DNA of 34,458 nucleotides from a virus: the IMG/VR virus record IMGVR_UViG_3300046028_003142, positions 1 through 34,458 of that record; one strand, given 5' to 3'. Below, piece after piece: positions 3,655 to 34,458 of the stretch (within the stretch, counting starts at the first letter, position 1; each line of letters opens with the position of its first letter). The notes beneath the pieces were generated by a model. That model saw only the letters and a list, made by a program, of their open reading frames with translations. It did no database searches and was not told the origin of the DNA. A program made the translations under genes and the position numbers.

Positions 3655-3692
3655 ATAAGTCTTTATCAATTTAATTATACAGTATATAGTAT

Positions 3693-4325: not shown

Positions 4326-4725
4326 GTATTTCTCCCAAGGTTTCCAGAAATTCTTCTATTTCCTGAATTTCATCTTCATTATCAAAGTCATCTGATAATC
4401 CATCTTCTATTTCTTCTTCTAATGCACGTTGTTCCAAATATGAAAAATAATTCGACTTCAACGATTCTTTAATATCTATAGCTGTGATAATTTGGTCTGT
4501 AGAAATCTCATATACATTCCCGTTCGCAAAACTAAACCACGGTATAAGTATATACGTCTCTACTAAATTTCTACCCTTCGGAGTTCTAATAACATTTAGA
4601 ACTACTGGATTAGTTATGCTTATCATACCGCGATCGGTAAAGTTTACACAGTTATCCTCAGTTCCACAGATAATATTATCCCCGGATGAAAGCTTCAATA
4701 ATTTATAGTATGTTGTATCTTCCAT
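4246..4725 (-). CDS. Sm-like fold small protein with acidic tail (putative)
   Basis: A 159-residue protein. The N-terminal 70 residues (YYKLLKLSSGDNIICG, then a VNFTDRGMISITNPVVLNVI stretch) have the short-strand pattern LxxGxxIxG...DxxMxITNPxxV expected of an Sm/LSm beta barrel, and I recall a structurally characterised Sm-like protein of putative cyanophage origin of this type. The C-terminal 60 residues are strongly acidic (EEEIEDGLSDDFDNEDE). The first base of the gene overlaps the uvsW stop (TAATG), and its last 80 nt are shared with gp55 in another frame. The role is unknown; RNA binding is only suggested by the fold. The gene is sound, the fold call is tentative. Confidence 0.6.
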   Translation of the reverse strand: MEDTTYYKLLKLSSGDNIICGTEDNCVNFTDRGMISITNPVVLNVIRTPKGRNLVETYILIPWFSFANGNVYEISTDQIITAIDIKESLKSNYFSYLEQRALEEEIEDGLSDDFDNEDEIQEIEEFLETLGEIHDDEHDYDGRDDTNTTRSRRGTRTLH

Positions 4726-6209
4726 TAGATTGATACCTTAATTAATTTGTAATTGAAATGTTCATCATTATAAATTTTAATACGTTCTATCATATGCAAC
4801 AAGGTGTAATTCTTTTTAGATTTCCAAGTAAGGTCGTCACCTATATCATATAACGTACAACTATCTTTATTATCGCTTGTTCTAAGTCCTCTACCAATTG
4901 ATTGCAAATTTCGAATGCGCGACTTAGAGGGGGAGGCAAATATAATATTATGTAAATTTCGAATATTTATCCCAGTTGAAAAAGTTCCATACGATGCTAC
5001 AATTATAGCATCCTTTTCGTTTTCTGTCAATCCTCGTATTTGCTCACGTTGCTCTGTATCTGTACCGCCATATACAAAAAACACTTTTCGATTTGGTTCT
5101 TTTTGTTGGATCATTTCGTGTAAACTTTTTCCATGTTTTTCAACATATTGAAAAAGTACCAAGGTGTTATTAGTTTGCTTTAAAGCAAGATTGCGGATAA
5201 ACCGGTTTCTTGGTTCATATTGGACAAGAAAATCCATTTCTTCTTGATACGAATTTCCTTTTAGAGATTTTCGTATTTCGTCAGGATATTCTAATATAAT
5301 ATTAAATATTTTTAAATCTGCGAGGGTTTTATCTGTTATCAACTGCTTAGTAGAAGTAACCTTTAAGACAGGACCAAAAATACCTTCAAGTACTAATCTA
5401 TGAGTTTTAAGCCCATCTAAGGTTCCAGTAGTTCCAATTCTAAAAGGAGAGTTATCGCACTTATTTAAAATTGTAGTTAAAGACTTTGCTTTAAACTGGT
5501 GCGCCTCATCGCCATAAATTGTTTTAAAATCACTAAAAAAGGATTTAGGTAATTTATAAAGAGATTGCCATGTACTAATTATAACATCATATTCATTAGA
5601 TTTTTCATGTCCTCCGTAGATACGATGGCAATGTTCCGATGCCTTCCAACCATTCATAGATGAATAGTCTTGAAAATCAGTATACATCTGTTCTACTAAC
5701 GACGTTGTTGGTACTAAGATAAGTTGACGTCTATTGAACATCTCATGCCAACGTAATAAACAGTATATGATAAGAGATTTACCTGAGCCAGTGGGAGAGA
5801 GTAAAAGACGTCTACTATCAACAATTGCTGCATATACCGCATCTATTTGATAATCCCTAATACTAATAGGCTGACCTTTAGATGCCAATTTTAAACTAAG
5901 ACAAAATTCTTTGACCTGATCATATGTGACTGAATCTTTAAAATTCGGAATAATTGAATCTTGTACCGTATATTCTCGTTCTTTAGCAAAAGCAGTCACA
6001 TAGTCTTTTAACCCTGTGTATAGCTCTTTGGTAAACATTGAAAATAATCGAACCTTGCCATCCCACATACGAGATTTATATAATGGATGAAATTTTGCTC
6101 CAGGAACATCAAAACAAAAATGATCACTTAGTTCCTGAGCAATTGAAGGATCACATAACACCTTTATATGAACCTCATCTTTTTTAATCAATATTATATC
6201 TGCAACCAT
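4725..6209 (-). CDS. uvsW: UvsW helicase
   Basis: UvsW is an SF2 helicase that unwinds R-loops and branched recombination intermediates, shutting down origin-dependent replication and promoting recombination-dependent replication. All motifs are in place: Walker A SPTGSGKS (138-145), DEAH (234-237), GTTGTLDG (259-266) and QSIGRGLR (436-443). The N-terminal domain has the family pattern MWDGKVRLF near residue 50, and YPDEIRKSLKG and GTFSTGINIRNLHN match T4 UvsW segments. The length of 494 residues is close to T4. The ATG overlaps the uvsY stop by one base, so uvsY and uvsW are translationally coupled. Confidence 0.95.
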   Translation of the reverse strand: MVADIILIKKDEVHIKVLCDPSIAQELSDHFCFDVPGAKFHPLYKSRMWDGKVRLFSMFTKELYTGLKDYVTAFAKEREYTVQDSIIPNFKDSVTYDQVKEFCLSLKLASKGQPISIRDYQIDAVYAAIVDSRRLLLSPTGSGKSLIIYCLLRWHEMFNRRQLILVPTTSLVEQMYTDFQDYSSMNGWKASEHCHRIYGGHEKSNEYDVIISTWQSLYKLPKSFFSDFKTIYGDEAHQFKAKSLTTILNKCDNSPFRIGTTGTLDGLKTHRLVLEGIFGPVLKVTSTKQLITDKTLADLKIFNIILEYPDEIRKSLKGNSYQEEMDFLVQYEPRNRFIRNLALKQTNNTLVLFQYVEKHGKSLHEMIQQKEPNRKVFFVYGGTDTEQREQIRGLTENEKDAIIVASYGTFSTGINIRNLHNIIFASPSKSRIRNLQSIGRGLRTSDNKDSCTLYDIGDDLTWKSKKNYTLLHMIERIKIYNDEHFNYKLIKVSI

Positions 6210-9575: not shown

Positions 9576-10940
9576 TTATACTCGTTTAATTGTTCTTGAT
9601 AAGGCTTTAGCATACGAAGATACGACATCATTAGAAGCGAAGCTGTCTTCAATACTAGTTTCTTCTACAAGGGGTTGTGTTTGGGAAATTGTGAAAGACT
9701 CTTTTCCAGATGTTAATGGGAAATAGTTTTCCTTAATTACCGCAACCTTTTCTCTGTAAATTTCTTCATTCTCAAAATTTACACCGTCTAAAAGTTTTGT
9801 TAATTTATTAACTTGGGTGTCGGCTAAATCATCAGACATTTCGCTGATAATTAAATGTTTCTTTAAAGACGACACTTCAGTATGTAAACCAACATTCTGT
9901 TCTAGTTGACGATCTAGACTTTCTTCTAAATCTGTTACCTTACTTTGTAATTCACCTATTACATCATATTTTTCTTCAGGCACTTCAATATAATGTTCTT
10001 TGAAGAGGGCCTTAAGTCCCGACATGAAATCTTCGGCTATTTCAGTGCGCAACCCATTATCGATTGCTAATTTATTTTCTTCCATGTAGTTCTCAACTAC
10101 ATAGTTTAGATAAGCATCGACCTTTTCAACAATGCTTTCTGTGTACTCATTGAACTCTGCAGAGTATTTTTCCTCCAACGCTTCGCAGACTCTTTCCATC
10201 TCATCGTTGACTTTAGCAATGACTGCTGCTTCAAAAATGGATGTTGCTTTCTCTCTAAATTCTTCGGATAAATCTTCACCGAAAATAGATGCCATATCAA
10301 TATTTAACTCTTGATCTGCTTCTGACAATTCGTCCATATTTTCGTCATCCTCTGTGTCTACGTCTTCGGTGCGTCTATAAACAATTTTGCCTGCCTTGTC
10401 TGTAGATGTTTCATTGCCTCTATTTGTGTCTTTAAACTGTAAACGACCTTGGTCGTCTGTAGAAGATTTAACTTCTACATTTTTATCTTTCTTAAAGACA
10501 AGACGCCCTTTATCATCTACGGATGTCTGAATGTCCTTATATCGGTCATTTATTGTGCTATCCGTATCTGCCTCAGAAACAACTTCTTCTTCCTCACGAA
10601 TACCGGTATTCATAGGAATGGCTGGCCAACTAGCACCTAGGTTCGGTGTACCTTGAACCGTAGTAAAGTTAGGGGCTACTCCAACTGAACCTTTCATCGC
10701 AATAGTATTTTTAGAAATACCTTTTGCAGTAATGGCGCCTTGATTTGCTTCATTTTCTCCGCGATCTTCATGGGATGCTTCTTCTGAACTACCTTGTTTA
10801 GGAGAAGATGAATCTCCTCCATTGGCAGGTTTGATCGAGGAATCCTTTGTTACATTGGACGAACTTCCGGCAGCTTCATCTAAAGAAGCTTTGACCTTTA
10901 CATTCTCCAACAATTCCTTAATTTTGCTTTCTACTGACAT
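9576..10940 (-). CDS. 22: Prohead core scaffold gp22
   Basis: The internal scaffold of the T4-type prohead, degraded by gp21 during maturation. The C-terminal half is helical, acidic and coiled-coil-like (VTDLEESLDRQLEQNVGL, VSSLKKHLIISEMSDDLA) and ends in a basic YAKALSRTIKRV, fitting gp22. Position between gp21 and gp23 is diagnostic. At 454 residues it is much longer than T4 gp22 (269). The extra N-terminal 200 residues are Ser/Gly/Glu-rich and probably disordered, with three repeats of the pattern S-x-D-x-x-G-[RK]-[LI]-x-[FY]-[KR] at residues 139-190. An exact late promoter lies upstream. Confidence 0.9.
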   Translation of the reverse strand: MSVESKIKELLENVKVKASLDEAAGSSSNVTKDSSIKPANGGDSSSPKQGSSEEASHEDRGENEANQGAITAKGISKNTIAMKGSVGVAPNFTTVQGTPNLGASWPAIPMNTGIREEEEVVSEADTDSTINDRYKDIQTSVDDKGRLVFKKDKNVEVKSSTDDQGRLQFKDTNRGNETSTDKAGKIVYRRTEDVDTEDDENMDELSEADQELNIDMASIFGEDLSEEFREKATSIFEAAVIAKVNDEMERVCEALEEKYSAEFNEYTESIVEKVDAYLNYVVENYMEENKLAIDNGLRTEIAEDFMSGLKALFKEHYIEVPEEKYDVIGELQSKVTDLEESLDRQLEQNVGLHTEVSSLKKHLIISEMSDDLADTQVNKLTKLLDGVNFENEEIYREKVAVIKENYFPLTSGKESFTISQTQPLVEETSIEDSFASNDVVSSYAKALSRTIKRV

Positions 10941-10975
10941 TAGAGTCTCCTAATTGTATGAATATACTCAAGCAT

Positions 10976-10983
10976 TATTTATA
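10976..10983 (-). promoter_or_regulatory. gp55-type late promoter for gp22
   Basis: Exact TATAAATA on the coding strand in the 50-nt gap between gp21 and gp22, 36 nt upstream of ATG 10940. It probably drives gp22 and, by read-through, gp23 up to the terminator at 8194. Confidence 0.75.
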
Positions 10984-10990
10984 ATTCTAG

Positions 10991-11641
10991 TTATCTAGAC
11001 ACTCGGGATAAGAATTGTTCGAAAATTCTTAATTTGGTTTCTTCCAGATTTTTACCAGAAGTTTTTCTTATTTCCTTTTGTGCATTTTCTATATGCACAG
11101 CTTTCCAGATACCGCTTTCTAATATCCATTCCGCAGATTCCATAATACCTTGAACAAAGGCATCTGGGGCAGATGGATCAGCTACAATGTCTACTGTCGC
11201 AAGATGAAAATCATCCTGCACTTCATTGACGCCTTCAGAATTCATTTTTAGAGATCCAAGACCTCTAGTTGATACACCTAATTGAACTTCATTTTCAATT
11301 AAATTCCTTGCAATAATACCCATTGGAGTTTCTAGTATTTTTGCTTTACCATATACATCGCTACCATTCATTTCCAATTTTGTAATCAAATGTGAAACTT
11401 GGTGCAAATTAATCGATGGGTTATCCGGGTGTCCTAATTCTCCCAAAGATCTTTTTTGTTCAATTAGTTCTCTATACTTTTGAACCTCGCGCTCCATAAT
11501 TGGTTTGCCGTAAGTTCTGTTATTTTTGTTTTTTCTATTTGCTTGAGCAAACACGCCCTCGATATAAACAGTTTTGCCTCCACCTTGTTTTTCTTCGGTG
11601 ATGTACTGCAAATCTTGAGCAACTTCCTTAATTAGTCTCAT
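10991..11641 (-). CDS. 21: Prohead maturation protease gp21
   Basis: A serine protease of the herpesvirus-assemblin-like fold that cleaves the scaffold and capsid propeptides. The catalytic histidine is H71 in LGELGHPDNP and the serine is S124 in LGVSTRGLGSL, both in the contexts of T4 gp21 (GELNHP, GVSSRGLGS). YIEGVFAQANRKNKNNRTY and DIVADPSAPDAFV are also conserved. The length of 216 residues matches T4 (212). It is one of a run of closely packed genes from the portal gene onward. The LFE motif in gp23 fits its known L/I-x-E preference. Confidence 0.95.
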   Translation of the reverse strand: MRLIKEVAQDLQYITEEKQGGGKTVYIEGVFAQANRKNKNNRTYGKPIMEREVQKYRELIEQKRSLGELGHPDNPSINLHQVSHLITKLEMNGSDVYGKAKILETPMGIIARNLIENEVQLGVSTRGLGSLKMNSEGVNEVQDDFHLATVDIVADPSAPDAFVQGIMESAEWILESGIWKAVHIENAQKEIRKTSGKNLEETKLRIFEQFLSRVSR

Positions 11642-12039: not shown

Positions 12040-13464
12040 TTATTTCTTAGCTGTTTTTGCAGCATCTTTAAACGCTTGAGCAGTTGGGGCACCTTTAGTA
12101 CCAGGTTTGCGCATTCTTTCATTACTACCTGCAGCAATACGTTTACGTTTAGCCTGAATATTTGCATACAAACCGGGCTTAGCGGCTTCATTTTTCATAG
12201 CATCAATTTCTGCTTGCTTTTGTGCAGCATATTGTTTGTACTGGCTAGGATCAGGTAATCCGCTTTTCTTTCTTTTTTCCTGATGCGTCCTGTATAGTTT
12301 TTCCTGTGCAGTTTCTTTTGGGTAATTAATTTTAATTTTTATCTTTTTAGCAATCTCATCTAGCGCCTTCAAACTGCTAAGTTCTTCAACCGTTTCTTTA
12401 TTGAAATTTGGATTCTTTTTCGCAAAATCCGCAGGAGGTAATACAGGCATCGCCTTACCTGTTTTGTCTACAGCTTGTCCTTGGTCTAAATCTTCTCTAT
12501 CTTTTGCAATTTTATATCTTTTTTCTAATTGAGATTTGTGGTCAGGATTGCTTGTATGTTGCGGGTTAGACAACATATCTTTTAATTGAGATGCCTGCGT
12601 CTTAGGTGCATCCAGTTCTTCAGCAACAGCCTTGGTCTTTAGCTTGTCAGCCGGTTTAGATCTATCTTCTATTGGTGGAAGTTGCCTGCCGTCTTTATTA
12701 ATTTTTCCGTCTTCGTAATCTTTGATACGTTTCTGTGCTTCTTCGTAGCCACCGGGACCATCAATTACTCCAACAGGAATAGCTTTTTTCTTCATGTCTA
12801 ATTCTTCACCAATTGGTCCACTTGGCTCTCTTAGACGAGATGCAATTTCTCGTTTTGTAAGTTTTGTTGAAGGTTCTCCCATTGTAGGTTCTCTTCTGCC
12901 CATACGATCTGGGGGAGAAACCGGTTCTCCCATTGTAGGTTCTTTTCTACCTGCACGATCGGGTTTACTAGTTTTCGATGGTTCGGGAATTACGTCGGTC
13001 AATGTCGGATAATCTGGTTTTTTGGTGCTGGCATTTCCCGCACGTACCTTTTCCATCTCCGCATCATATCTAGTTTTAAGATCAGATTTAACTGGCTCTG
13101 CTTTAACTGGCTCGGCTGCTGGTTCTGCATATCTGCGATATACGCCCCCAATTGGAACTGTTTTACCTACATTACTAGTTGTAGTACCGCCGCCTCCACC
13201 TCCGGCGCCCATTTCTGAACCTCGGTCATCTCCGGGTCTACGAAACCCTTTAGGTGGTACCATTTGCTCATCAATTTCAACTTCTTCATTGCGTTTAGAC
13301 GCATATGATGCACCTAACGCCATGCGGATTCTTTCCTGTTTGCTCTTACCTGCAAATTTAGGATTGTCGCTTTTTACAAAATCGTGAATCCATTTGCCTG
13401 TAGGATCTGACGATTTTAATTTTTCTAAAAGTGACTCTTCTCGAATTGAATTAAATTTTTTCAT
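12040..13464 (-). CDS. Putative prohead core/internal protein with tandem repeats
   Basis: A 474-residue hydrophilic protein rich in Lys, Pro, Glu and Ala. Residues about 24-60 (WIHDFVKSDNPKFAGKSK, then RMALGASYASKRN) form a helical motif that recurs in proteins of cyanophage-type T4 relatives, often with scaffold genes. The middle is low complexity, with a glycine run (GAGGGGGG) and two adjacent 17-residue repeats built on GR[KR]EPTMGEP. The C-terminus is basic. Its position between gp20 and gp21 is that of the small T4 prohead core genes 67/68, but it is far larger than those. It is probably an internal head or scaffold protein. No enzyme motifs are seen. Confidence 0.55.
   Translation of the reverse strand: MKKFNSIREESLLEKLKSSDPTGKWIHDFVKSDNPKFAGKSKQERIRMALGASYASKRNEEVEIDEQMVPPKGFRRPGDDRGSEMGAGGGGGGTTTSNVGKTVPIGGVYRRYAEPAAEPVKAEPVKSDLKTRYDAEMEKVRAGNASTKKPDYPTLTDVIPEPSKTSKPDRAGRKEPTMGEPVSPPDRMGRREPTMGEPSTKLTKREIASRLREPSGPIGEELDMKKKAIPVGVIDGPGGYEEAQKRIKDYEDGKINKDGRQLPPIEDRSKPADKLKTKAVAEELDAPKTQASQLKDMLSNPQHTSNPDHKSQLEKRYKIAKDREDLDQGQAVDKTGKAMPVLPPADFAKKNPNFNKETVEELSSLKALDEIAKKIKIKINYPKETAQEKLYRTHQEKRKKSGLPDPSQYKQYAAQKQAEIDAMKNEAAKPGLYANIQAKRKRIAAGSNERMRKPGTKGAPTAQAFKDAAKTAKK
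12872..12943 (-). repeat. Two tandem copies of a 51-nt coding repeat
   Basis: Two identical 21-nt segments (12872-12892 and 12923-12943) are 51 nt apart, one per 17-residue repeat of the putative prohead protein. The spacing is a multiple of three, so copy-number change would keep the frame. Confidence 0.8.
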
Positions 13465-16008: not shown

Positions 16009-18675
16009 TTATGCGCCGACTTCTTCGAAGGATACGCCTGTTCTTGTAGCAATAAAATTCAATTGAATAAAATTAATTGCTCGAGCAGGTTTAATGTATA
16101 TATCAGCAACAAATTCATTGCGATCTATAACTTCTCCAGTATTGTTTGTTTCATCGCAAACTACTCTGAAGTCTGTAACACCTCTACGACCTTGAACGTC
16201 TCTTAAGAATGGCTCTACAAGATTTCTAAATTGTGCTCGGGTAAATGCGTCATTAAATTCAAACAACTGAAATTTTGACGCCGTTGCAATTGCTTTTTCA
16301 AGAACAATAAACAATCTACGTACATTAATACGATCAAATGCACTTGGTCTTGCTAACAATGTTTTATCGCCAAATAACAACGTACCTTGTCCTGGGAATG
16401 TTACTACAGGATTTACGCCCTTCTTATATAATGCATCTCTATCTGCCTTTGACGGAGACCACGATAATTTAACAACATTTTTAATTACACCTCTGTTATA
16501 CCCTGCAGGTGAGAACCAAGGATCCGCAATATAATCTGTTCTAGCGGATAACCCTGCGATGTCGCCATTTAAGGGAACATATCTATATTTATCATTGTAA
16601 CGATCGTATTGATATTTCCAGCCTGAATCTAAAACCGCAAAAGATGAGGATGTTAAATTATCTCTGTGCGTAATTATTTTTGCTGCCTGGCCCGTTGTAT
16701 TTACTACATCTGCATAAGGTGGGGATGCGAATACTACACAATCTCTTCTACTTTCTGCAATTGCGATAACCGAATTTACTGCGGTATAGGATGTGGTTGG
16801 TCCCATTGGAATTAGTCCAACGTCGTATTCCTCATCGTTTGAGAAAATTTCATAACCTGCCAAAATATTTGCAATGCCGACTGTATCTCCAGACACACCT
16901 TGCGATAATGTGGTTGTTACATTTGCTAATAACGACCCAAACGTCTTATCGCGAGAAATTTGTCCCCAATTAGTCCCGCCCTCGGCAGTACTAGGATGAT
17001 CTAATACCCAAACATACGATGACTTATCATTAATTACATCTTTATAGTAATTTGAAGCTTGATCTGATGTTTTTGCGTCTGATGCTTTAGATAAGAACGA
17101 GTATTTTTCTAATATTGAATTAGGAGTACCAGTAAAAGATCCTCTAACATCAATAACAATTACATGGATTTCATCATTAGAACCACCTTGTACCTGCACC
17201 GAAGCAGATGTACTTGGAGCAGAATCAAACGATGACGCATATGCCCAATTAGAATATGTACTAGAGTCAGCTAAAGAAACTTTTATACTATTCCCTAATG
17301 TGCCAGGATATCTAGCAGCAAACATACCGTAATTTAATCCACCTGCGCTATAAGCCGATGTATAATTGTCTTCATTTAGAATTAACGGTGATACATAATC
17401 TACAACTACAATTGCATTTGCAACTTCTGTATTTTCAACAATTGTTATCGTCGGCGTTGCAATATACCCGCTACCAATATTAGTAACATTTGCACCTACA
17501 ACTTGGAATCCTAATTGTAATGCAATAAGTGCATTGCTTGTTATATAAGGCAAATCTTGTGTAGCAGGAACAACCGATACATTTGCTTCAGTATATCCAA
17601 ACCCTGCATTAGTAATTGCCACATCAATAATTTCTGCCTCTAACCGCGTATTTGCCGTTGCGTCAGTTCCACCCAATGTGTTATTGCGATTGATTGTAAC
17701 ATTAGGAGCAAATGCATATCCGCCAGCGCCAGGATTTAATAATGTGATCGTATCAATATACCCATAACCTAAATTAGCAGTTAATACTGCATCAACACCG
17801 GTGTTACCGTCTAATCTATTTACTGTTATAGTTGGCGCAGTTAAATATCCATTGCCGCTACTAGTAATTGTATACCCCGTCACTACGTTTGCTGTAACAA
17901 CAGGAACAACCGTTGCATGTTGTCCTCCGGGTACAAGTGTACCGCCAGATACAACAATATTAGCACTACCGTAATTTGTACCAGCTGTAGATATTTCAAT
18001 ATCTTTTAATTTAAAGTGTACATCTAAATTAGCAGATGCGCTGGTAGAACCTTGATTCTGTATTACAACATTGGATAAGGTTGTATAATTATTACCAGAG
18101 TTAATTAAATTAATTGCACCAATTTGACCTGCTCCTAATAACGCGGTTAATATTGCGCCTGACCCGTCTCCGTTGACAATTAATGTGGGTGCTACGGAAT
18201 ATCCAAACCCTGCGGTCGTTATGCCTGTACCAAATACATTGCCCGTCGAATATAATATTGGCGTCGCGGTTGCTGTCGTGCCGCCAAATGGCGATGTAGG
18301 GGCACTAATAGTCAACGTGATGCTATTAACATCAGAAAAACCTCGGTCGCTTGATGTGACAGTAACGGCAGAAACGGTACCATTTGGTACCGACACTGCA
18401 TTTTGTGCTATGGATTTATCAACAACTCGCGTGACTTGTAAATTGTTCCCATACGATAAAAAATTTGCTGCGGTAAAGAAGTATCCTGCAGTTGTATCAT
18501 TTGGGACACCAAATTGTTCTACAAGTTTTCCTTCAGAATCTACAGTTACTACTTGTTCAACAGGTCCCCATTGAAATGCGCCCGAAAATGCTCCCGCAGT
18601 AGTTGCAACCGAGGGAACAACAGTTGTTCTATCTTCTTCGGTAACTACAACGCCAGGTGAAAGCTGAAATGCCAT
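16009..18675 (-). CDS. 18: Tail sheath protein gp18 with repeat insertion
   Basis: The contractile sheath subunit. The N-terminus (MAFQLSPGVVVTEEDRTT, FQWGPVEQVVTV, FLSYGNNLQVTRVVD) and the C-terminal half (KYQYDRYNDKYRYVPL, SPAGYNRGVIKNVVKLSW, PSAFDRINVRRLFIVLEKA, PARAINFIQLNFIATRTG) match T4 gp18. Length is 888 residues against 659. The extra mass lies between residues about 100 and 425 and consists of about seven roughly 40-residue units, each with a G-x-[GN]-Y motif. T4 gp18 has one such motif in the equivalent place (STPGSNYAVG). The insertion should sit on the outer face of the sheath. A late promoter and leader hairpin lie upstream. Confidence 0.96.
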   Translation of the reverse strand: MAFQLSPGVVVTEEDRTTVVPSVATTAGAFSGAFQWGPVEQVVTVDSEGKLVEQFGVPNDTTAGYFFTAANFLSYGNNLQVTRVVDKSIAQNAVSVPNGTVSAVTVTSSDRGFSDVNSITLTISAPTSPFGGTTATATPILYSTGNVFGTGITTAGFGYSVAPTLIVNGDGSGAILTALLGAGQIGAINLINSGNNYTTLSNVVIQNQGSTSASANLDVHFKLKDIEISTAGTNYGSANIVVSGGTLVPGGQHATVVPVVTANVVTGYTITSSGNGYLTAPTITVNRLDGNTGVDAVLTANLGYGYIDTITLLNPGAGGYAFAPNVTINRNNTLGGTDATANTRLEAEIIDVAITNAGFGYTEANVSVVPATQDLPYITSNALIALQLGFQVVGANVTNIGSGYIATPTITIVENTEVANAIVVVDYVSPLILNEDNYTSAYSAGGLNYGMFAARYPGTLGNSIKVSLADSSTYSNWAYASSFDSAPSTSASVQVQGGSNDEIHVIVIDVRGSFTGTPNSILEKYSFLSKASDAKTSDQASNYYKDVINDKSSYVWVLDHPSTAEGGTNWGQISRDKTFGSLLANVTTTLSQGVSGDTVGIANILAGYEIFSNDEEYDVGLIPMGPTTSYTAVNSVIAIAESRRDCVVFASPPYADVVNTTGQAAKIITHRDNLTSSSFAVLDSGWKYQYDRYNDKYRYVPLNGDIAGLSARTDYIADPWFSPAGYNRGVIKNVVKLSWSPSKADRDALYKKGVNPVVTFPGQGTLLFGDKTLLARPSAFDRINVRRLFIVLEKAIATASKFQLFEFNDAFTRAQFRNLVEPFLRDVQGRRGVTDFRVVCDETNNTGEVIDRNEFVADIYIKPARAINFIQLNFIATRTGVSFEEVGA
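17401..18375 (-). repeat. Seven ~40-residue repeats inside the sheath gene
   Basis: Protein-level repeats with a GxGYxxxPTxTV-type core; the tyrosines fall at residues 159, 197, 235, 277, 320, 361 and 404, spacing 38-43. The units are diverged (GFGYSVAPT, GNGYLTAPT, GSGYIATPT versus GNNYTTLSN, GTNYGSANI), so this is an old array, not a recent tandem duplication. Confidence 0.85.
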
Positions 18676-20841: not shown

Positions 20842-21591
20842 TTAAAAATCTTCAAAATTTTCTATATACCCATAACTATCAGTTACATTTGCTGTGGGAG
20901 AATCCGGTTGAACCGTAATTTTTTGTTGTTGATTCGTTAAATCTGGCGAATTAAAGGTATTTGTAATAACCTTTTTAATAACACCTTGTTTATTAACAGG
21001 GCCATAAAAATTAAGTTTAACTGTAAACCCTAAAGTCCACATAACAGAACGTCTGGTTACAAAATCTCCTTCATAGTCATCTTCAAACCCTATAGTATTT
21101 AATAAAATAGGAAGATCATTTTGTATATTTAATTCCGGTATTGCCTTTAAAGTTAAATTATAGTCGGGATTAAAATATGGTAATATTTGTTCAATAATTT
21201 GTAATCCATCATCTTGATTTCTAGCATACACATATAACAACATAGATAAATTATATGGAGTAGGCGCGTATTGTGTACTTGAAGTTGTGCTTGTATCCAA
21301 TGCCCTAGATTGTTGTATTGGACTAACTTTTCTATTAGGATCATAATCCAATGATACTAATTCAAACCCCATTCTAGGTAAAATAACTTGAAATTGATTT
21401 GTTTCTATAGTAGGTTGTTGATTTATTCTAGCTAAAAATTTCTGTTTAGGCGAATAAGATAACGGTACCCGTTGTACATTTATAGTATTGCCGTTACCAT
21501 CTTTTCGTTCAATGGTTATACTATTGAACATATTACCAAAAGCAATAATTGCCTTTCTAATAGTCCCCCAATAAAATCGTTGATCTAGCAT
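20842..21591 (-). CDS. 15: Tail sheath stabiliser gp15
   Basis: Caps the top of the tail sheath and joins tail to neck. The opening LDQRFYWGTIRKAIIAFGNM corresponds to the FYNSSFRRYATLMGDLF start of T4 gp15. FNSITIERKDGNG, VPLSYSPKQKFLARIN, YNLSMLLYVYARNQDDGLQI and IEQILPYFNPDYNLTL are family blocks. It has 249 residues, similar to T4 (272). The ATG directly follows the gp14 stop. Confidence 0.94.
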   Translation of the reverse strand: MLDQRFYWGTIRKAIIAFGNMFNSITIERKDGNGNTINVQRVPLSYSPKQKFLARINQQPTIETNQFQVILPRMGFELVSLDYDPNRKVSPIQQSRALDTSTTSSTQYAPTPYNLSMLLYVYARNQDDGLQIIEQILPYFNPDYNLTLKAIPELNIQNDLPILLNTIGFEDDYEGDFVTRRSVMWTLGFTVKLNFYGPVNKQGVIKKVITNTFNSPDLTNQQQKITVQPDSPTANVTDSYGYIENFEDF

Positions 21592-22332
21592 TTAAGGATC
21601 TCCAAACGGATTTCTTTCAGAAAAATCCAAAACTGCATTTTTTTCTGCTCGTATTTTTTCATTATCTGCACCAACCGTTGGCTTATTCGAAGTATAATCC
21701 TCTAATACCATTGGAGTTAATTCAGAAGTTTCTAATAATATACTATCTCCGCTTTCGGAAATTATTTCAAAGTTATCTATATCTAAATCATAACCAGATG
21801 CCAATTGATCTATTTCAGCAACACCCGTGTTAAATCTTTCATTAGAATATTGCATCAATTCCCCATATAGGGTATAAACATATAATTTGCCTACCTGATA
21901 AAATGGTACGGCATGTTCGACTTTTCGTATCTCAAAAAAACCTTTTGTCAACGGAAAATAAATTACGTCACCTTCTGCTGGTCTAGTTAATATAGAATTA
22001 CCTGTGCTACCAATTACATCTGACCAACGTTTTCTTGCGACAACAAATGTAGCCGAATCTCTAATCTCAACACCAAATTTCGTTAATAATTCGCTATCAC
22101 CTTCGAAACCATTATTAGATTGTAAATACATCTCAATTGGGTAAGCGTGATCAAAAGTATTAGTTGGGTCTTCAGTTAGAACATTATCATAGTTACTAGG
22201 AGTACGTGGTATATAATAGACTTCGAATCCATAAATTTTCATCGATTCAATAATTAAATCTTCATAGATATTCTGCTCAGAGGCACGACCTATGTTCTTA
22301 CCAGATTGAAAATAATGGTTAACTGTTGCCAT
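21592..22332 (-). CDS. 14: Neck protein gp14
   Basis: A neck protein that seals the packaged head. Family features are EDLIIESMKIYGFEVYYIPR near the start (T4: [20 protein letters not shown]), a FGVEIRDSATFVVARKRW strand region, EGDVIYFPLTKGFFEIRKVE and VPFYQVGKLYVYTL. 246 residues against 256 in T4, ending RNPFGDP like the SPFDNDF tail of T4. It lies between the gp13 region and gp15. Confidence 0.95.
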   Translation of the reverse strand: MATVNHYFQSGKNIGRASEQNIYEDLIIESMKIYGFEVYYIPRTPSNYDNVLTEDPTNTFDHAYPIEMYLQSNNGFEGDSELLTKFGVEIRDSATFVVARKRWSDVIGSTGNSILTRPAEGDVIYFPLTKGFFEIRKVEHAVPFYQVGKLYVYTLYGELMQYSNERFNTGVAEIDQLASGYDLDIDNFEIISESGDSILLETSELTPMVLEDYTSNKPTVGADNEKIRAEKNAVLDFSERNPFGDP

Positions 22333-22334
22333 TT

Positions 22335-22412
22335 TTAGTATTGACTTTCTATTGACAAGGTGTTATTATCTCTATGTACCCTATTAATAAACACTACATT
22401 ATTATATTCCAT
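22335..22412 (-). CDS. Possible 25-residue ORF between gp13 and gp14
   Basis: The gap between gp13 and gp14 is unusually long for this operon and is filled almost exactly by an ATG-initiated frame of 25 codons, starting MEYNNVVFINRVHRDN, with its stop two bases before the gp14 ATG. No strong ribosome site precedes it; CAGG is about 10 bases upstream. It could be a real small protein, a translational coupler for gp14, or chance. Nothing is recognised in it. Confidence 0.3.
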   Translation of the reverse strand: MEYNNVVFINRVHRDNNTLSIESQY

Positions 22413-22418
22413 TATTAA

Positions 22419-23162
22419 TTAGCCTGTAAAAAAGTCTACAGGTAGCTGAAAACTGGATTGTATATCATCTTCAATTTGTTTGATCTCTACCATAGCTTCA
22501 TTATAAATCGTTTCACCGTTAAGCGTTACTCCGCCAGGTAATTGCATACCGGAAAACTTCTTAAGATTATCTCCCCATTGCCGTTTAATCAAAGCAGTAG
22601 TATACATTTTAAGGAATCTATCGTCATAAACATCGCGATATGTTTCCGGATCTAATATTCGGTAACAATCAACCAATAGATATTCGCCCACGGCGACATC
22701 AGCACTCCAATCCATATCGATGAAAAGTCTATTCATGTGCCGATTAAATCTAATTGGCTTTTGACCTACAAGTAATTGATTGATTAATTCAATTTCTCTT
22801 TTCACTGTGTAGTAGTAAATCAAATCCGTAGACATTAAACTATACAAATCGTTAATCATAATTTGATATTTTAAACTAAACAGATTCAATCCATCTGATT
22901 TATTTGTAAATGGAAAAATTTCCTGTACCCCCACAACGGTATCCGGTACAGAAATATATTGATTATCTTTATCTGTTTGAGTAATTTGATGCTTTAAATA
23001 TACTCTTTCTATCGCATCATAATGATATTCGCGATAAAATTGAAACGCATCATCAATTCTATCTTCCACCTGATCGTCATCTACGTTTATTTCTAAAACA
23101 GGTGATCCTAATCTACGTAGGCAATAGTCTCTTAGACCTTCTCTGGATGTTACTTTAGCCAT
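22419..23162 (-). CDS. 13: Neck protein gp13
   Basis: Head-completion/neck protein that binds the portal. [20 protein letters not shown] near the start matches LKDVILRRLGAPIINVELT of T4 gp13, [18 protein letters not shown] matches ALELYGEYHFDGLN, and [19 protein letters not shown] matches GMMLPGGVTIDGQRLIEEA. Its 247 residues lack about 60 residues of the T4 protein (309). The start overlaps the end of the fibre gene by eight bases, and a second decayed copy of the first nine codons lies at 24990-25019. Confidence 0.95.
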
Positions 23163-24408
23163 AGTATACTATTTCTCCGGTAGTTGGATTATATGCTAAT
23201 GATAAAAATCCTGCAGGTATAGTATTCCCCGCATTTCGTATTGGTTTAATTATTAAAGTATTGGCTGCGGTGTTAGTTAATCCATTTCCGGTAGCATTAA
23301 TTATAATTGAATTGTCTGTTTGTCTAATATTACCTGAGTTATAACCTATTGCAATTGCTAAATTTCCTTGATTTGAAAATCCTGCACCGGCGCCTAATGC
23401 GATTGCGTATGTTCCTTGATTTGTGTGCGCCGCCCAATTTCCGATTGCGACTGCTGAATTTCCTTGATCATCATATCCCGCTCTTTCACCAATTGCGACT
23501 GCTGAATTTCCTTGGGTAAATCGTCCCGCTAGTATGCCTATGGCTACTGCGTTTATTCCTTGATTAGCATTAGCGGCAAAGCGTCCGATTGCGATTGCAT
23601 TCGTTCCTTGATTAGAAAATCCCGCATAGTCGCCAATTCCGACTGTGTTTCTTCCTTGATTATAATATCCTGCTCCTGCGCCTATTGCGATTGCTGATAT
23701 TCCTTGATTATTATTGCCGGCAGTTTGGCCTATTGCGACTGCTGCCATTCCTTGACTAAACTGCCCCGCGCCAAGCCCCATTGCAATAGCTTGACCCCCT
23801 TGCGCGGACAACCCGGCAAATGAGCCTATTTTAATATTGCCACTATTAGAAACGGTTACATTTGCCGTGCTACCTACCCCGGCTGGGCCTGTTGCTCCGG
23901 TTACACCAACTAATGAATTTCCAGTAAAATCTTTTACATCATTTGTTCTTATTTGAGCAACATATGCAGTACGCCATACGACATTCGAAGAACCTAAATC
24001 ATATAGATCGCTAGAAACAGGAATAAGACTTTGTGCAATTACTGATAAGTTTGCAGCACCGGCGCTGCCGGTGGCTCCTTGAACTCCGGTGGCGCCTGTT
24101 GCACCTGCTCCTGTTGCTCCCGTTGCTCCTGCGTTTCCGGTTAATCCTGTAGATCCAATTACGCTTGCGTTGCCGGCAGGCCCCGCCGGACCGGTAGCAC
24201 CAGTTAATCCAATAACCCCAGTGGCGCCTGTTACACCACTTCCGGTTCCACCTGTTGCATATTCAAGAGAATTCCAAGTATTAGAGCCATCTCCATATTT
24301 TATTTTACCCGTGTTCATTTCTAAACCAGGTTCTCCTTGAGATAAAATTGGATTAGTATTTGCCCAATTTACAGATGTATCTCTTCTTAATTGTATTTTG
24401 TTAGCCAT
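23155..24408 (-). CDS. Fibre/adhesin with Mtd-type N-terminus, collagen and YadA-head repeats
   Basis: 417 residues in four parts. Residues 1-50 ([20 protein letters not shown], then [16 protein letters not shown]) are the short phage-fibre N-terminal domain related to the major tropism determinant N-terminus. Residues about 55-118 and 168-178 are collagen-like GAT/GPA triplets. Residues 203-362 are ten 16-residue units with an A-[IV]-A-[IM]-G-x-x-A-G core, the pattern of trimeric adhesin (YadA-type) heads. The C-terminus ends in [16 protein letters not shown]. It is probably a trimeric receptor-binding or accessory fibre. Its stop overlaps the gp13 start by eight bases. Repeats make length change likely among relatives. 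Confidence 0.85.
23323..23802 (-). repeat. Ten 48-bp coding repeats (YadA-head-like)
   Basis: Ten in-frame units of 16 codons, each opening with QG and carrying AIAIGxxAG or a close variant. Unit length is constant at 16 residues across all ten, with variable tips (GQFS, GNNN, GYYN, GFSN, GRFT), as expected of left-handed parallel beta-roll trimers. Confidence 0.9.
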
Positions 24409-24452
24409 TTTGTGTTACGTCTCCGTTAAAGGATTTCTTATTATATATGGAT

Positions 24453-24980
24453 CTATGCAGTACCGCCATCCACATTAAAATTAATTGTATCATATATTGT
24501 TGTTGCGCTGCCGCCATCTAAATTTGTTACTGTATATGTTATACCCGGTGCACCGGTCAATCCTCTAAGACCCGTAAAACCTCTAAGCCCGGTTGCCCCT
24601 CGAACACCCGTAGCACCGGCGCCGGTGGCGCCCTGAATACCTTGAATGCCCGTAGCACCGGTTAATCCCATGTTACCTCGGAATCCGGATGCGCCTCGAA
24701 TACCTGTAGCGCCAGTCAATCCTGTACTACCTCGAGCACCTGCAGCACCGGTTACTGAAATACCTGTAGCACCAGTTAATCCGGCAGGACCTTGAACGCC
24801 CATACTACCTCGTAATCCAATTGGACCTCGAATACCTGTAGCACCAGTTAATCCTGTATTACCTCGAGCGCCTGCAGTACCGGTCAACCCCGTTAATCCG
24901 GTGGCGCCAGTCAATCCCATGTTACCTCGGAATCCGGAGGCGCCGATTGCTCCTGTTGCTCCTGTTGCCCCATTAGTCAT
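24453..24980 (-). CDS. Collagen-like virion protein
   Basis: 175 residues. Nearly the whole protein from residue 4 to about 148 is Gly-x-y triplets ([32 protein letters not shown]) with two short phase breaks (GISVTG and GAGATG). The C-terminus [16 protein letters not shown] then FNVDGGTA is a small capping motif common on phage collagen proteins. It should trimerise into a thin rod, perhaps a fibre or whisker on baseplate or head. There is no N-terminal anchoring domain, so it may bind the adjacent Mtd-type fibre. DNA-level repeats are present, including an exact 26-nt copy at 24664 and 24913. Confidence 0.85.
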
Positions 24981-24989
24981 AATTTGCTC

Positions 24990-25019
24990 CTACCCTTCTT
25001 TAGATGTTACTTTAGACAT
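24990..25019 (-). pseudogene. Nine-codon remnant of the gp13 start
   Basis: An ATG frame MSKVTSKEG followed by TAG, compared with the gp13 start MAKVTSREG. The 27 coding bases agree at 23 positions. It overlaps the end of the preceding gene by eight bases, exactly as the true gp13 start overlaps the end of the fibre gene, and AGGGG lies six bases upstream. Read as the left-over original gp13 start after insertion of the two collagen genes. It encodes no useful protein. Confidence 0.75.
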
Positions 25020-25344
25020 GTGTTACCCCTGGATTAACCGTGACAATGCCTTCTATTATTCTTATTACAGTATTGCCTGACGTAGCAAGCATATCATATA
25101 AATATCTACCTGATTTCAAATTCGCAGTTGTCGATGCAACTAATGATATTTGCACATTGCCATTTGCTGCGTCAATAATAGTTGAAGTAAAAACTATAGA
25201 ATTTGCCGCAGGAAAAGATCTTCGCATTTCGCTAGCAATAGTATACCCAGATAATGAGATAGGATTTTTACTATTATCCAAATATTCTATATATTCGGTA
25301 AAAGAGCTTCCTTGATCAATAATTAAATTTTTTGTTGTTGCCAT
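25012..25344 (-). CDS. Small beta-sandwich tail/fibre protein (putative)
   Basis: 110 residues. NLIIDQGSSFTEYIEYLDN, then ISLSGYTIASEMRRSF and a C-terminal SGRYLYDMLATSGNTVIRII, is the pattern of a short beta-sandwich domain found as an N-terminal domain of baseplate and fibre proteins in many tailed phages (BppU-like). Here it is free-standing. It would be a baseplate or fibre connector; the partner is unknown. Its stop overlaps the gp13-start remnant by eight bases, suggesting it once abutted gp13. Confidence 0.65.
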   Translation of the reverse strand: MATTKNLIIDQGSSFTEYIEYLDNSKNPISLSGYTIASEMRRSFPAANSIVFTSTIIDAANGNVQISLVASTTANLKSGRYLYDMLATSGNTVIRIIEGIVTVNPGVTHV

Positions 25345-30202: not shown

Positions 30203-31939
30203 TTAAGCAATCAATGATGTAGCAATTAATTTTCTTATTTTAGGTAAATATACAGGATTCGACGCATAGAAAACAACTTTTATTTGATATTGAAAAAAGT
30301 CATCATATGATGTTGACTGTCCTTCTGTATCCGATAAGGATTTATTTACAGTATATTCAAACCCCGGCTCAAGCAATTTATAAATTTCTTGAGTAAATAT
30401 CGTATCGTCAGTGCCAGCAAACGATTTAGTTTGCCCCGGTGCTAAAGCAAGACGAGTCCATGGTCTTGAAGCAATTCCGGCGGTATACGATTTGTCGTTT
30501 CTAGATATAACTCTTGCAAAAACTTCAATATCAGACCCAACTTTTCTATTAACTTCCATTCTAACTTCTAACCCGGTTGAATCTAAATTTTCTGTTAATG
30601 TGACAACTTTACTAATATACCTAGATAATGCGTCACCATTATTAGAATTTAATTCAGAATCAGAAATGTTTGTAGTATATGGGGTTATATTTGTTCTAAA
30701 TACTTGCGATTTTATTAGTTGTTTGTCTAATATCGGGGATACGTCTTGAGATTTTGTTGTTATTGAAATCTGAAGTTTAATATCTCCTTGATCTCTTGTA
30801 CTTTGTCTTCCGGCAATGTCTAATGAGTCACCCGCATTTATTACCTTTGCATCATTTTGTTCTCGATTTGTACTATCGTTAGTTGTTACAATTTTATATT
30901 CTGCAAATGCAGTATCGCCCAATGCAATATCGGTAGATAGTAGACGAATTCTATTATAATCAATTTGCTTAATATCCGGGGAGATTAATTCAAATGTAGA
31001 TGTACCTGTTTCAAATTTTGCTTTTCTAAGATAAAAAGTTAAATCCTCATTATCATCACCTACCCAATTTCCGGTATTTTGTGCTTTGAACAATTTTCCT
31101 GCAAAGGGATTTTTTACAATTTTACCATCACCTCGTTTTGCAGATAATAATGTATACTTTGATGATTTTGTTACTACGCAAAATGCATATTCTCCAGGTT
31201 TTAAGTATACCGGAAAATCAAAGGTAAAATTTGTTGCTTGATAATTTTGACCTGGAACTGGCACCGCAGGTATATTTGCTGGTGCAATAAAAATAGAAGT
31301 ACCGGAAAAGTATTCTGTAGTCGAAGGGGCTCCTCCGGACATAGGACGTAATTCTACTCCTAACGGAAATTTATCATCTATTGCAGATACGAATAATGCA
31401 ATACCTGTCAATACAAGTCCTAACGGATATGCACTTTCATCTACAGAAAACGTCTGAGATAAAGGGTCTAATCTTGTGGTTGTTGTACTGGCATCTCCAG
31501 ACGATCCGGTATTATCTGTTCTAAATTTTTCAGTTCGTCTTAATGATATAGTACCACCTTGTTCAGTATCTACAAGATTTAAGCCATGATTCATTAAAAC
31601 AGTTTCAGAAATATATTTGCAATCGGCAACGCCGTTAGGGCTATCACCAAATGTTATTCGTATTTCACCCGATAAAAATTTATATTGCCCTTCTGTACTA
31701 GGAATATAAAGATACCCGACTGCGGTACCTAGCTGATCTGTTATAATAGGATCAGCAATTAAAGCACCTGTAGTAACTGGGCCGGTAAAATTTGTAACAT
31801 TGACACCGTTAACATAAGAATAAATTCTAATGCTAGGTGGCATCTCAGATACTGCGAAGGATATAAGTTCGGATCCCGCATATACCGGAACATCTGTTTT
31901 CAATGTTTTAGCTGTACTAATAGTACTTGTTGTCGCCAT
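30203..31939 (-). CDS. Baseplate structural protein (DUF4815-associated family)
   Basis: 578 residues. LDPLSQTFSVDESAYPLGLV, FVSAIDDKFPLGVELRPM and FDFPVYLKPGEYAFCVVTKS form a beta-sandwich block found in large T4-like and cyanophage baseplate/tail proteins, where it often lies in the same polypeptide as the DUF4815-type region. Here that other region is on the neighbouring gene, which ends three bases upstream. The C-terminal third (EVRMEVNRKVGSDIEVFARV, QYQIKVVFYASNPVYLPKIR) is a further beta domain. A role in the baseplate wedge or fibre attachment is inferred. A variant late promoter precedes it. Confidence 0.7.
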   Translation of the reverse strand: MATTSTISTAKTLKTDVPVYAGSELISFAVSEMPPSIRIYSYVNGVNVTNFTGPVTTGALIADPIITDQLGTAVGYLYIPSTEGQYKFLSGEIRITFGDSPNGVADCKYISETVLMNHGLNLVDTEQGGTISLRRTEKFRTDNTGSSGDASTTTTRLDPLSQTFSVDESAYPLGLVLTGIALFVSAIDDKFPLGVELRPMSGGAPSTTEYFSGTSIFIAPANIPAVPVPGQNYQATNFTFDFPVYLKPGEYAFCVVTKSSKYTLLSAKRGDGKIVKNPFAGKLFKAQNTGNWVGDDNEDLTFYLRKAKFETGTSTFELISPDIKQIDYNRIRLLSTDIALGDTAFAEYKIVTTNDSTNREQNDAKVINAGDSLDIAGRQSTRDQGDIKLQISITTKSQDVSPILDKQLIKSQVFRTNITPYTTNISDSELNSNNGDALSRYISKVVTLTENLDSTGLEVRMEVNRKVGSDIEVFARVISRNDKSYTAGIASRPWTRLALAPGQTKSFAGTDDTIFTQEIYKLLEPGFEYTVNKSLSDTEGQSTSYDDFFQYQIKVVFYASNPVYLPKIRKLIATSLIA

Positions 31940-31942
31940 TTT

Positions 31943-34458
31943 TTAGATTCCTATTAAAGAATAATTTATAGATTTGTAACCATTGCTTTCAATTTTTACT
32001 GCATTTGGATATAGTTTTTCCACATCTTGTGCCATAAATCCTAAATACCTACCGTGCCCTGCAATACCTTTAAATTGTTTCTTATATTCGAATTCATATA
32101 ACCTTAACCCGTTAGGTAATTTTTTCTTAAATCTAATATTTTCCTTCATTCGTTCATCTGAAAATAAGCGCCTAATGCCTTTCCAAATATATTGTCCAAT
32201 TTTTACCACAGCATATGTAAGAGCAACAACCGCAACTACTTGAATAAATGGGCCTGCCGCATATAATGCAGATGTTATGGAAGCTGTACTACTTGCTATG
32301 GCCGCAGATGCTGTTCCTAAAATAGGTATACCTGTAGTTGCTGCTGCAAGACTAGAAGCCCCTGCTGCCAACGACCCCCAAGTTGCAGTAACTAACCCCG
32401 ACGTAATAAGCCCAACACCTGTAGATACCCCTGAAAACGTAGCACTAAATGTTTGATTAAAAATATTTGCTAAAGAATTTGCAATTAACGTAGACCCTTC
32501 CGATATTGCTCCCCATGCCGCAGGACCAAACACAGATTGTCCAACCGCGGATACTATACCTCCGCTTCCTGTCAATGAAGAAGAACCGTTTGCCAATCCA
32601 TATATCCAATCTATACCGCCTGTTACAGCTCGATACGGCCACGATACCATCTTTAAGAAACCATCCATAGTTGTGAATGTTTGTACTACAGTATATCCTA
32701 ACGTCCTTGCACTTTCCCATACTACTGCAAGAGTCGATTCACTTAACCAAGATGCACCTTTAAAATACTCATATAAACCATATAAAGCGGCACCTGTCAA
32801 TAACATATTAACCGAAAAACTATTACTTTTAGAAATTTTAGCTCTACCTTTACCATCATCTATGCCACCAGGATTAACTGAGATAGTAGAATTTGCTTCT
32901 AAATTGGACACATAAATTTCTTCTACATATTTTTTTGTTATGATATCATTAAATAAGAAAACATCTGTATCTTGAACTAATTGCATATCAATATTTGAAG
33001 AATCAAACCCCGGATAACACTCTCCAGTATCATTATCTAATACACAAGTAAAATACCCCGATGCTAAATCCGCAGTATTGAAGTCATCAAAGTTTTCAAC
33101 CAAAATACCAGATTTTAATAGTTCCGTTTCTTGATCTTCATCTAAAATTATAGACTTTAAAATTGAAAGTTCTGCAGTTTGCAATTTAACAGTTCTATCT
33201 AAGTCTATTGCCAAGTTTTCCAATTTAGCAATATCTCTCATAGTGAATCGTTTATTGTCCTCATATGTTATTTTAACATCAAACCCGTTAATGGCATACG
33301 GAGGAATATCTAATGTTGCAATTGATAATTTTGTTAAATCTGAATTATCCTCACTTGCTTCCGGATTTACTGATTCTTTACCCACTTCAACATAAAATTT
33401 ATCATACGGTGAAGTAAAATTTTGACGAGTATTAGTTACATAAATTCTATCTTTTCTTCCTATAAAATACGTTACATCGACTTCAGTTGTTATAGTTGAA
33501 TTTGGAATAATTGCGGTATCAAAGTTTTGATATTTTGACCCATCCACGCGCCTTGGTCTAAAATCTAAACAATCTCTAAGATTATATGTTTTTGCATCTA
33601 CCACAGATCTATATACAGGAATACTGCTATAAAAATTTGCAGGATATGATTCTACTGTAACAGGTCCTTCGCCAGTATGCTGAAAATAACTTACAACAGT
33701 TAAAACTTGGCCTGGTGGCAACGCCTCTATATCTCGATTCACATATGTTATTGTACCATGATCGTAGAACTGATCTCGTTGACCATTATCTAAATTGTAG
33801 TCTCTTGCGGGTTCCTGTTGCATTAGTATCCAGGTCTGCGAATCTGTTGGAGCCACATTTGTTGATGGTGCAATAGCTTTATACACCGCAGAGCCATATA
33901 CTATAAGATCATCATACGTATATGACGTTGTAGAATTCCATTGCCCCTGATACTTAAAAGATAACCCATCATAGAAAGGACTGTTATTATCTTTTTCTAA
34001 AAAAGTTTTAGAACTTGTTCGTGTTCTAGCATAATCTGTAGTACCGAAAGACGGAGCTAGTACAAACGCTTCTTTTATTGCATTAATTGCATTAATTGGA
34101 TTAATGTTGCCACCCGCAGCTATCCATCTATTATACCAAAACGCTACACCTTCCGTATCCGGTTCTCTGTATAATCCATAGAAAGGCGTTGCTGGAATAC
34201 CAAAGTTTCCTAATAATGCGTTAGTTTCATATAATTGCGCTGAAATATATCTTCCATCTGCTTCGGGTATTCCAAATTCGGTTGCCCAATCTGCCCATGA
34301 GGTATTCGAAATATTGTCAATTTTATAAACACCATTAAACGACACAATATCCGAAACGCCTAATGAGAACGGTAGTTCTGCTAATGATACGTTTGTAATT
34401 ACTGCTTGATTTTCAACTAATGTTTTAGTTCTGGGGACTACATCATCGTTTTCTATCC
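31943..34458 (-). CDS. DUF4815-like baseplate/fibre protein with S74 chaperone, 5' end missing
   Basis: The frame is open past a GTG at 34345 to the window edge (reading ...RTKTLVENQAVITNVSLAEL), so the true start lies outside; 837 codons are visible. Near the visible start, FYGLYREPDTEGVAFWYNRW looks like a DUF4214 unit. PVYRSVVDAKTYNLRDCLDF then RPRRVDG is a DUF4815 hallmark. A roughly 150-residue Ala/Gly/Ser-rich hydrophobic stretch follows, with a possible membrane-type helix (IQVVAVVALTYAVVKIGQYI). The last 72 residues (31943-32161) are an intramolecular chaperone of peptidase family S74: SDERMKENI, NGLRLYEFEYK, GFMAQDVEKLYPNAV. In that family the Ser-Asp pair cuts the chaperone off after trimer folding. 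Confidence 0.8.
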   Translation of the reverse strand, partial: IENDDVVPRTKTLVENQAVITNVSLAELPFSLGVSDIVSFNGVYKIDNISNTSWADWATEFGIPEADGRYISAQLYETNALLGNFGIPATPFYGLYREPDTEGVAFWYNRWIAAGGNINPINAINAIKEAFVLAPSFGTTDYARTRTSSKTFLEKDNNSPFYDGLSFKYQGQWNSTTSYTYDDLIVYGSAVYKAIAPSTNVAPTDSQTWILMQQEPARDYNLDNGQRDQFYDHGTITYVNRDIEALPPGQVLTVVSYFQHTGEGPVTVESYPANFYSSIPVYRSVVDAKTYNLRDCLDFRPRRVDGSKYQNFDTAIIPNSTITTEVDVTYFIGRKDRIYVTNTRQNFTSPYDKFYVEVGKESVNPEASEDNSDLTKLSIATLDIPPYAINGFDVKITYEDNKRFTMRDIAKLENLAIDLDRTVKLQTAELSILKSIILDEDQETELLKSGILVENFDDFNTADLASGYFTCVLDNDTGECYPGFDSSNIDMQLVQDTDVFLFNDIITKKYVEEIYVSNLEANSTISVNPGGIDDGKGRAKISKSNSFSVNMLLTGAALYGLYEYFKGASWLSESTLAVVWESARTLGYTVVQTFTTMDGFLKMVSWPYRAVTGGIDWIYGLANGSSSLTGSGGIVSAVGQSVFGPAAWGAISEGSTLIANSLANIFNQTFSATFSGVSTGVGLITSGLVTATWGSLAAGASSLAAATTGIPILGTASAAIASSTASITSALYAAGPFIQVVAVVALTYAVVKIGQYIWKGIRRLFSDERMKENIRFKKKLPNGLRLYEFEYKKQFKGIAGHGRYLGFMAQDVEKLYPNAVKIESNGYKSINYSLIGI
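31963..31970 (-). promoter_or_regulatory. Possible variant late promoter for the baseplate gene
   Basis: TATAAATT on the coding strand, 23 nt upstream of ATG 31939, inside the last codons of the preceding gene. It is the same 7/8 variant seen before gp23. In AT-rich coding sequence this can arise by chance. Confidence 0.35.

Follow-up and report, generated by a model that had tools for sequence, protein, structure and literature searches.

The question raised by this locus is why the first 27 bases of gp13 recur upstream of the gene itself, with two fibre-type genes lying between the two copies, and whether the interrupted or the uninterrupted arrangement came first. The window is the whole stretch of DNA that was analysed, the 34,458 nucleotides of IMG/VR virus record IMGVR_UViG_3300046028_003142, and its source is a water-borne, T4-like phage. 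A first-pass annotation made from the letters alone had proposed that the gene at 25012-25344 once abutted gp13 directly, that a collagen/YadA-fibre cassette of two genes was inserted at the start of gp13, so that two copies of this start resulted, and that the repeat might act as a recombinational switch or mark an exchange hot spot for receptor-binding genes. We read the whole structure as the scar left where an adhesin cassette was inserted into a T4-like phage genome, with a probability of roughly 85%. The features on which the argument is built are as follows.

About 21590 to 22622, no strand: gp14 and the 3' part of gp13, a tract nearly identical to the empty relative by fourfold divergence
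22419 to 23162, minus: gp13, an intact head-tail adaptor (neck protein) of 247 aa (PHROG 211, head-tail adaptor Ad2, E 2.5e-43; phage gp13/neck matches)
23136 to 23162, minus: right copy of the repeat, the true gp13 start, with 27/27 nt the same as in the empty relative
23155 to 23162, minus: 8-nt overlap in which the fibre gene ends on gp13 ATGGCTAA and takes from it both its final codon (GGC) and its stop (TAA), as shown by the sequence and the ends of fibre relatives
23155 to 24408, minus: fibre gene, 417 aa, with an Mtd_N-type N terminus (Pfam PF18454, E 2e-12), a collagen stretch and YadA-head-like repeats
24453 to 24980, minus: collagen-like gene, 175 aa (Pfam PF01391, E 1e-22; collagen/tail-fibre PHROGs)
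24987 to 24991, minus: AGGAG, putative ribosome-binding site of the collagen gene, which shares bases with the TAG of the remnant
24990 to 25019, minus: left copy of the repeat, a gp13-start remnant of nine open codons plus TAG; in the alignment it takes the position of the gp13 start of L084, an empty relative
25012 to 25019, minus: 8-nt overlap in which the 25012 gene takes its TAA stop from left copy ATGTCTAA (in empty relatives, from gp13 itself)
25012 to 25344, minus: p132-like protein, 110 aa, of the T5 'L-shaped tail fiber' collar family and likely a fibre adaptor (PHROG 1084/3304, AF2, Foldseek, PDB profiles)

The repeated gp13 start and its two junctions

On the minus strand the true gp13 start reads ATGGCTAAAGTAACATCCAGAGAAGGT (23162-23136) and the left copy, 1,857 bases upstream of it, reads ATGTCTAAAGTAACATCTAAAGAAGGG (25019-24993), with 23/27 identities between them. 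The left copy translates as MSKVTSKEG followed by TAG and the right copy as MAKVTSREG; the four differences comprise two synonymous changes and two conservative ones (A to S and R to K). Both copies are entered in the same manner by the preceding gene. The 25012-25344 gene has its stop at 25012, 8 nt inside the left ATG, and the 23155-24408 gene has its stop at 23155, 8 nt inside the right ATG and in the same phase. The first-pass description of the repeat, including the short translation with its stop and the paired 8-base run-ins, was confirmed on the sequence in every particular.

The 3 kb upstream of gp13 were simulated 1,000 times with a first-order Markov model; the best match did not exceed 19/27 and averaged 15.9. 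As a control, only 8 of 29,232 other 27-mers from the window reached 23/27 within 3 kb upstream, and all 8 came from one short region near 12.9 kb. Chance does not explain the 23/27 repeat. All sequences used here are metagenome assemblies. Both copies were present in three IMG/VR contigs from other metagenomes (L081-L083), each 100% identical to the window over 4.7 kb, and a fourth contig (L109) matches the window from inside the collagen gene onward. It was deduced from these matches that the two-copy structure is not a one-off assembly error.

On the left side of the cassette, the 25012 protein matched PHROG families of which one is labelled 'L-shaped tail fiber protein assembly', and the PDB profile search returned entries named p132 / L-shaped tail fiber assembly at E 1.7e-6 and 1.7e-5. 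Its AF2 model (pLDDT 89.5) gave 8hqz/7qg9, tail-tip chains of T5 and DT57C, as the best Foldseek matches (prob 1.00, TM about 0.7). By profile and predicted fold the protein is p132-like, sharing these similarities with T5 p132 and the DT57C L-shaped-fibre assembly protein, and a fibre adaptor or collar situated next to the fibres is the likely and sensible reading of its role. This reading agrees with L001, in which a 25012-type domain is fused to collagen and pectate-lyase-like domains, as for a fibre-carrying collar. T5 is a siphophage, whereas the phage of the window is a myophage, in which the collar role of the 25012 protein is putative. The first 8 nt of the left copy would be preserved because they supply the TAA of the 25012 gene. 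The leader before the collagen-fibre pair reads GTAGGAGCAAATTATG. No gp13 remnants were seen downstream of other 25012 homologs.

On the right side, the last 48 residues of the fibre have dozens of relatives in other viral contigs, and 64 of the recovered ends read EIVYYT* with a stop of their own. The window and its copies read EIVYYG* at this point, because TAT GGC TAA is the gp13 start TATGGCTAA. Neither gp13 nor a 25012 homolog was found at the loci of these C-terminal relatives. One of them, in L239, has an N terminus differing from that of the window fibre and lies two genes after a protein that we take to be a T4-type major capsid protein. Within the window fibre, the collagen stretch scored below the Pfam cut-off and the head repeats have a 48-nt (16-aa) period; a relative of its C terminus matched PF05658 YadA_head, also below the cut-off. 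Phage isolates, mostly cyanophages, share only the N-terminal 50 aa of the fibre, or else part of the head repeats. Since the front and the head domain have relatives in different phages, the fibre is, as judged from its sequence, a mosaic of an Mtd_N/collagen front like that of cyanophage structural proteins and a head domain common to other phages.

Searches for a presumed donor with the full-length fibre protein returned only the same phage in IMG/VR and no match in bacterial genomes, and neither collection yielded a donor having this pair of genes. Glycine codons account for the raised base composition of the cassette, whose GC3 is ordinary, and the composition is therefore uninformative as to origin. 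Judging by domain similarity, the two products would be extra virion fibres for host attachment, placed beside the presumed collar adaptor.

The empty-site relative and the direction of change

The uninterrupted arrangement was found in five IMG/VR contigs (L084-L088), in which the 25012 homolog is joined straight to gp13 with the same 8-nt overlap. These contigs were deduced to be one phage because their mutual identity is at least 99.98%, and together with the four that carry the cassette they account for all nine IMG/VR contigs having the gp13-start motif. Window 1-571 aligned to L084 5781-6351 and window 2403-4723 to L084 6326-8646. The two blocks overlap at L084 6326-6351, and these 26 bp, which occur once in L084 and twice in the window, are the repeat. 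Over 34 kb the window and the empty relative are collinear and about 88-94% identical; apart from the cassette, they are set apart only by short interruptions in or beside gene 12040-13464. No fibre or collagen relatives were found in the 74.7-kb contig of the empty relative. At the four variable positions of the repeat, L084 matches the right copy throughout. The same bare junction with its 8-nt overlap was also observed in L089-L095 and L141. The suggested comparison with related phages thus yielded the direct join in L084-L088, and the supposition that the 25012 gene once abutted gp13 is borne out by this join and by the shared overlap in the more distant loci.

The direction of change was deduced from a phylogeny of gp13, in which the window pairs with the empty L084 (100/100) within a clade of eight, the other seven members of which are all empty with the 8-nt overlap (100/97). 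In the surrounding 25-row clade, the occupied or fused loci L001, L004, L008 and L148/L149 are found at separate places. Because the window nests in a clade that is otherwise all empty, the cassette is by parsimony a derived gain in the window lineage. The empty relatives and the tree together uphold the earlier proposal that the two-gene cassette entered at the gp13 start and left two copies.

The reverse, an ancestral cassette that the L084 lineage lost by recombination between the two copies, is improbable. Such a loss across a direct repeat would yield exactly the clean junction of L084, and the slot is often occupied elsewhere among T4-like phages. This history nevertheless needs one event more, L089-L095 and L141 are bare with the same 8-nt overlap, and L084 bears no trace of the cassette, its junction having right-copy letters only.

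A proposed route for the insertion and its alternatives

Under the preferred reading of a derived gain, the p132-like collar gene would originally have run 8 nt into gp13, with gp13 ATGNCTAA supplying its stop, and a segment with the collagen gene and the Mtd_N/collagen/YadA-head fibre gene would then have been inserted at the start of gp13. At the right-hand junction, the fibre gene would have been fused to the gp13 ATG, losing its own last codon and stop, both of which gp13 now supplies. At the left-hand junction, the first 27 nt of a gp13 would have been kept; they still terminate the collar gene and lead to the putative collagen ribosome-binding site. The most likely route would be one illegitimate join of a foreign DNA end at about gp13 codon 9, after which homologous recombination (one crossover) through gp13 would have completed the exchange; these two steps would give the observed structure. 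By this route, the gp13 start of the recipient would survive as the left copy, and that of the incoming DNA as the right copy. The 4/27 differences are compatible with relaxed constraint on the left copy since about the split from L084, and an older divergence between two gp13 alleles fits as well. The Ser at codon 2 of the left copy agrees with L089-L095, at this single position only.

Fourfold divergence between the window and the empty relative was 0.03 for gp14 and 0.34-0.45 for most flanking genes. By this measure the tract at 21590-22622, some 0.5 kb away from the cassette, was exchanged recently by homologous recombination, and its near identity indicates that the neighbourhood recombines. 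Elsewhere in the window, 775 bp of the head protease/scaffold genes (10516-11290) show no difference from the empty relative, in surroundings that diverge by several percent, and represent another recent exchange tract.

A tandem duplication of gp13, most of the first copy later being replaced by the fibre genes with its start left behind, would also be expected to give an upstream gp13 start, and the two synonymous and two conservative differences look as if the copies had diverged partly under coding constraint. This sequence of events is nonetheless improbable, as it requires an additional step and no gp13 duplication was seen at any screened locus.

A switch at the population level, in which recombination between the two gp13 starts would add and remove the cassette precisely and repeatedly so that fibre-plus and fibre-minus phages coexist, is considered highly unlikely. 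Such recombination would spare both gp13 and the stop of the 25012 gene, the empty state does occur in relatives, and homologous exchange has taken place between the window and empty lineages. Against this, no excised window-lineage genome was found among the IMG/VR contigs with the gp13-start motif; all five empty contigs among the nine belong to one other lineage, and no pair of otherwise identical genomes showed the two states, the empty ones being 88-94% identical to the window. The copies have drifted to 23/27, and because L084 matches the right copy at the four variable positions, an excision later than this drift would require the crossover to fall on the ATG or ahead of it. Among 108 gp13 loci screened, a second gp13 start was found only in copies of this same phage, which leaves the direct repeat in one phage only; outside those copies, no different fibre cassette lay between two gp13-start copies, an arrangement that the first-pass annotation had proposed to look for. 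No site-specific recombinase was found among the window proteins tested, the window being part of the genome only. A literature search for repeat-mediated deletions in T4 gave no result, and the word 'repeat' is absent from the paper on spontaneous deletion in S-PM2. A switch operated by the repeat is thus unsupported by the empty lineage and the screened loci.

That the left nine-codon frame is a chance match or a common small gene unrelated to gp13 has a negligible probability, for although partial matches are common among short AT-rich sequences, the simulations peak well below the observed identity, the left copy aligns positionally with the gp13 start of L084, which by itself refutes this reading, and the motif search finds the frame only in this phage and at true gp13 starts.

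The fibre initiation region at 24401-24424, GGAGACGTAACACAAAATGGCTAA, resembles GGGAGTAACACATGGCTAA at gp13 in the empty junction (nominal 5e-4, about 31 starts). Nested or stepwise insertions arising from such a third gp13-initiation-like copy were considered, and the similarity was judged too weak for this to be claimed.

Adhesin turnover at the locus

The notion of an exchange hot spot held for the locus, which corresponds to a published host recognition cluster, but not for the repeat, since other exchanges occur there without it. A survey of 59 loci having gp13 together with a 25012 homolog, near-copies counted and the gp13 start extrapolated in diverged loci, scored 26 as empty, 29 as occupied and 4 as fused. 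Only one empty/occupied pair had a gp13-start scar. Between L001 and L097, whose flanks are about 90-92% identical, the whole 25012 gene is replaced, with breakpoints at the 25012-gene start codon and the gp13 start; where L097 has the stand-alone p132-like gene (2765-3091), L001 has a fusion of 1,097 aa (2680-5973) that includes collagen and pectate-lyase-like domains. Another pair, L093 and L094, carries different adhesins immediately ahead of the 25012 homolog. For cyanophages and Methylophilales phages, the interval holds roughly 0.3-4 kb of fibre-type or small genes. A further adhesin, pectate-lyase-like or collagen, was observed upstream rather than downstream of the p132-like gene at L089 4419-5990, L094 4404-5981 and L093 14-1330.

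In T4, wac is located directly upstream of gene 13. The T4 fibritin (wac) locus is known for modular swapping, with exchange of fibre modules in a T4-like collar fibre gene, and this mostly ancient swapping involved the C-terminal domains of one gene (Letarov and Krisch, PMC3797505). In the window, by contrast, two whole genes were added, and the likeness is that of a collar fibre gene with module exchange, fibritin homology not being claimed. For the T-even phages, Tetart et al. reportedly described in 1998 recombination between conserved motifs in the distal tail-fibre genes, where short shared sequences are said to border the exchanged adhesin modules. The window repeat differs in being a neck-gene start, in occurring in one phage and in being apparently a by-product. 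For DNA imported into T4-related genomes, illegitimate recombination or ectopic insertion has been proposed, at junctions typically lacking familiar mobile-element signatures (Petrov et al. 2010, PMC2993671). The window junction likewise has no mobile-element signature, but it has kept a readable 27-nt duplication.

The closest published setting is the host recognition cluster of pelagimyophages and cyanomyophages, a hypervariable structural island of T4-like aquatic phages that ends at neck genes and was placed between VrlC and gp14. Its putative receptor-binding parts are collagen, major tropism determinant and YadA domains, and genomes differing by added gene cassettes have been reported (PMC7029224). 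The window agrees with this cluster in position, gp13 (PHROG 211) and gp14 (PHROG 460/679) following the cassette; in domains (PF18454, PF01391 and the 16-aa head repeats); and in the variation of content between close relatives (window/L084, L001/L097, L093/L094 and the 59-locus survey). No VrlC was identified in the window, whose large genes at 30203-31939 and 31943-34345 match PHROG 358. The case goes beyond the published description in that a single insertion can be located base by base at the start codon of gp13, and in having a scar, stop codons borrowed from the neck gene and a relative with the empty site.

Adhesin turnover at this locus is therefore known, and what is new is one more example, in a T4-like phage, with an unusually legible insertion junction. 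The entry point, the duplicated piece of gp13, the borrowed stops and the look of the empty site can all be read to the base. The locus provides a concrete case of an essential neck gene keeping its start while adhesin genes come and go, and the junction is testable in reads.

Some other genes of the window were also of note. The two large genes at 30203-31939 and 31943-34345 match PHROG 358 (unknown function), and specifically successive parts of this one 2,056-position family, so that one large protein may be split in two here. The tail sheath gene (16009-18675) encodes 888 aa, the middle of which (about residues 180-425) has matches to other structural families, which suggests that domains were inserted. 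The genes at 1631-2314 and 2800-3669 are GTP cyclohydrolase and QueE-like genes, parts of the 7-deazaguanine pathway. Finally, gene 12040-13464 has 54 extra codons (12622-12795) compared with the empty relative. This indel is flanked by a short direct repeat, GAAGAATTAGAC / GAAGAACTGGAT, both encoding an EELD that occurs once in the relative, a cassette-like geometry at small scale.
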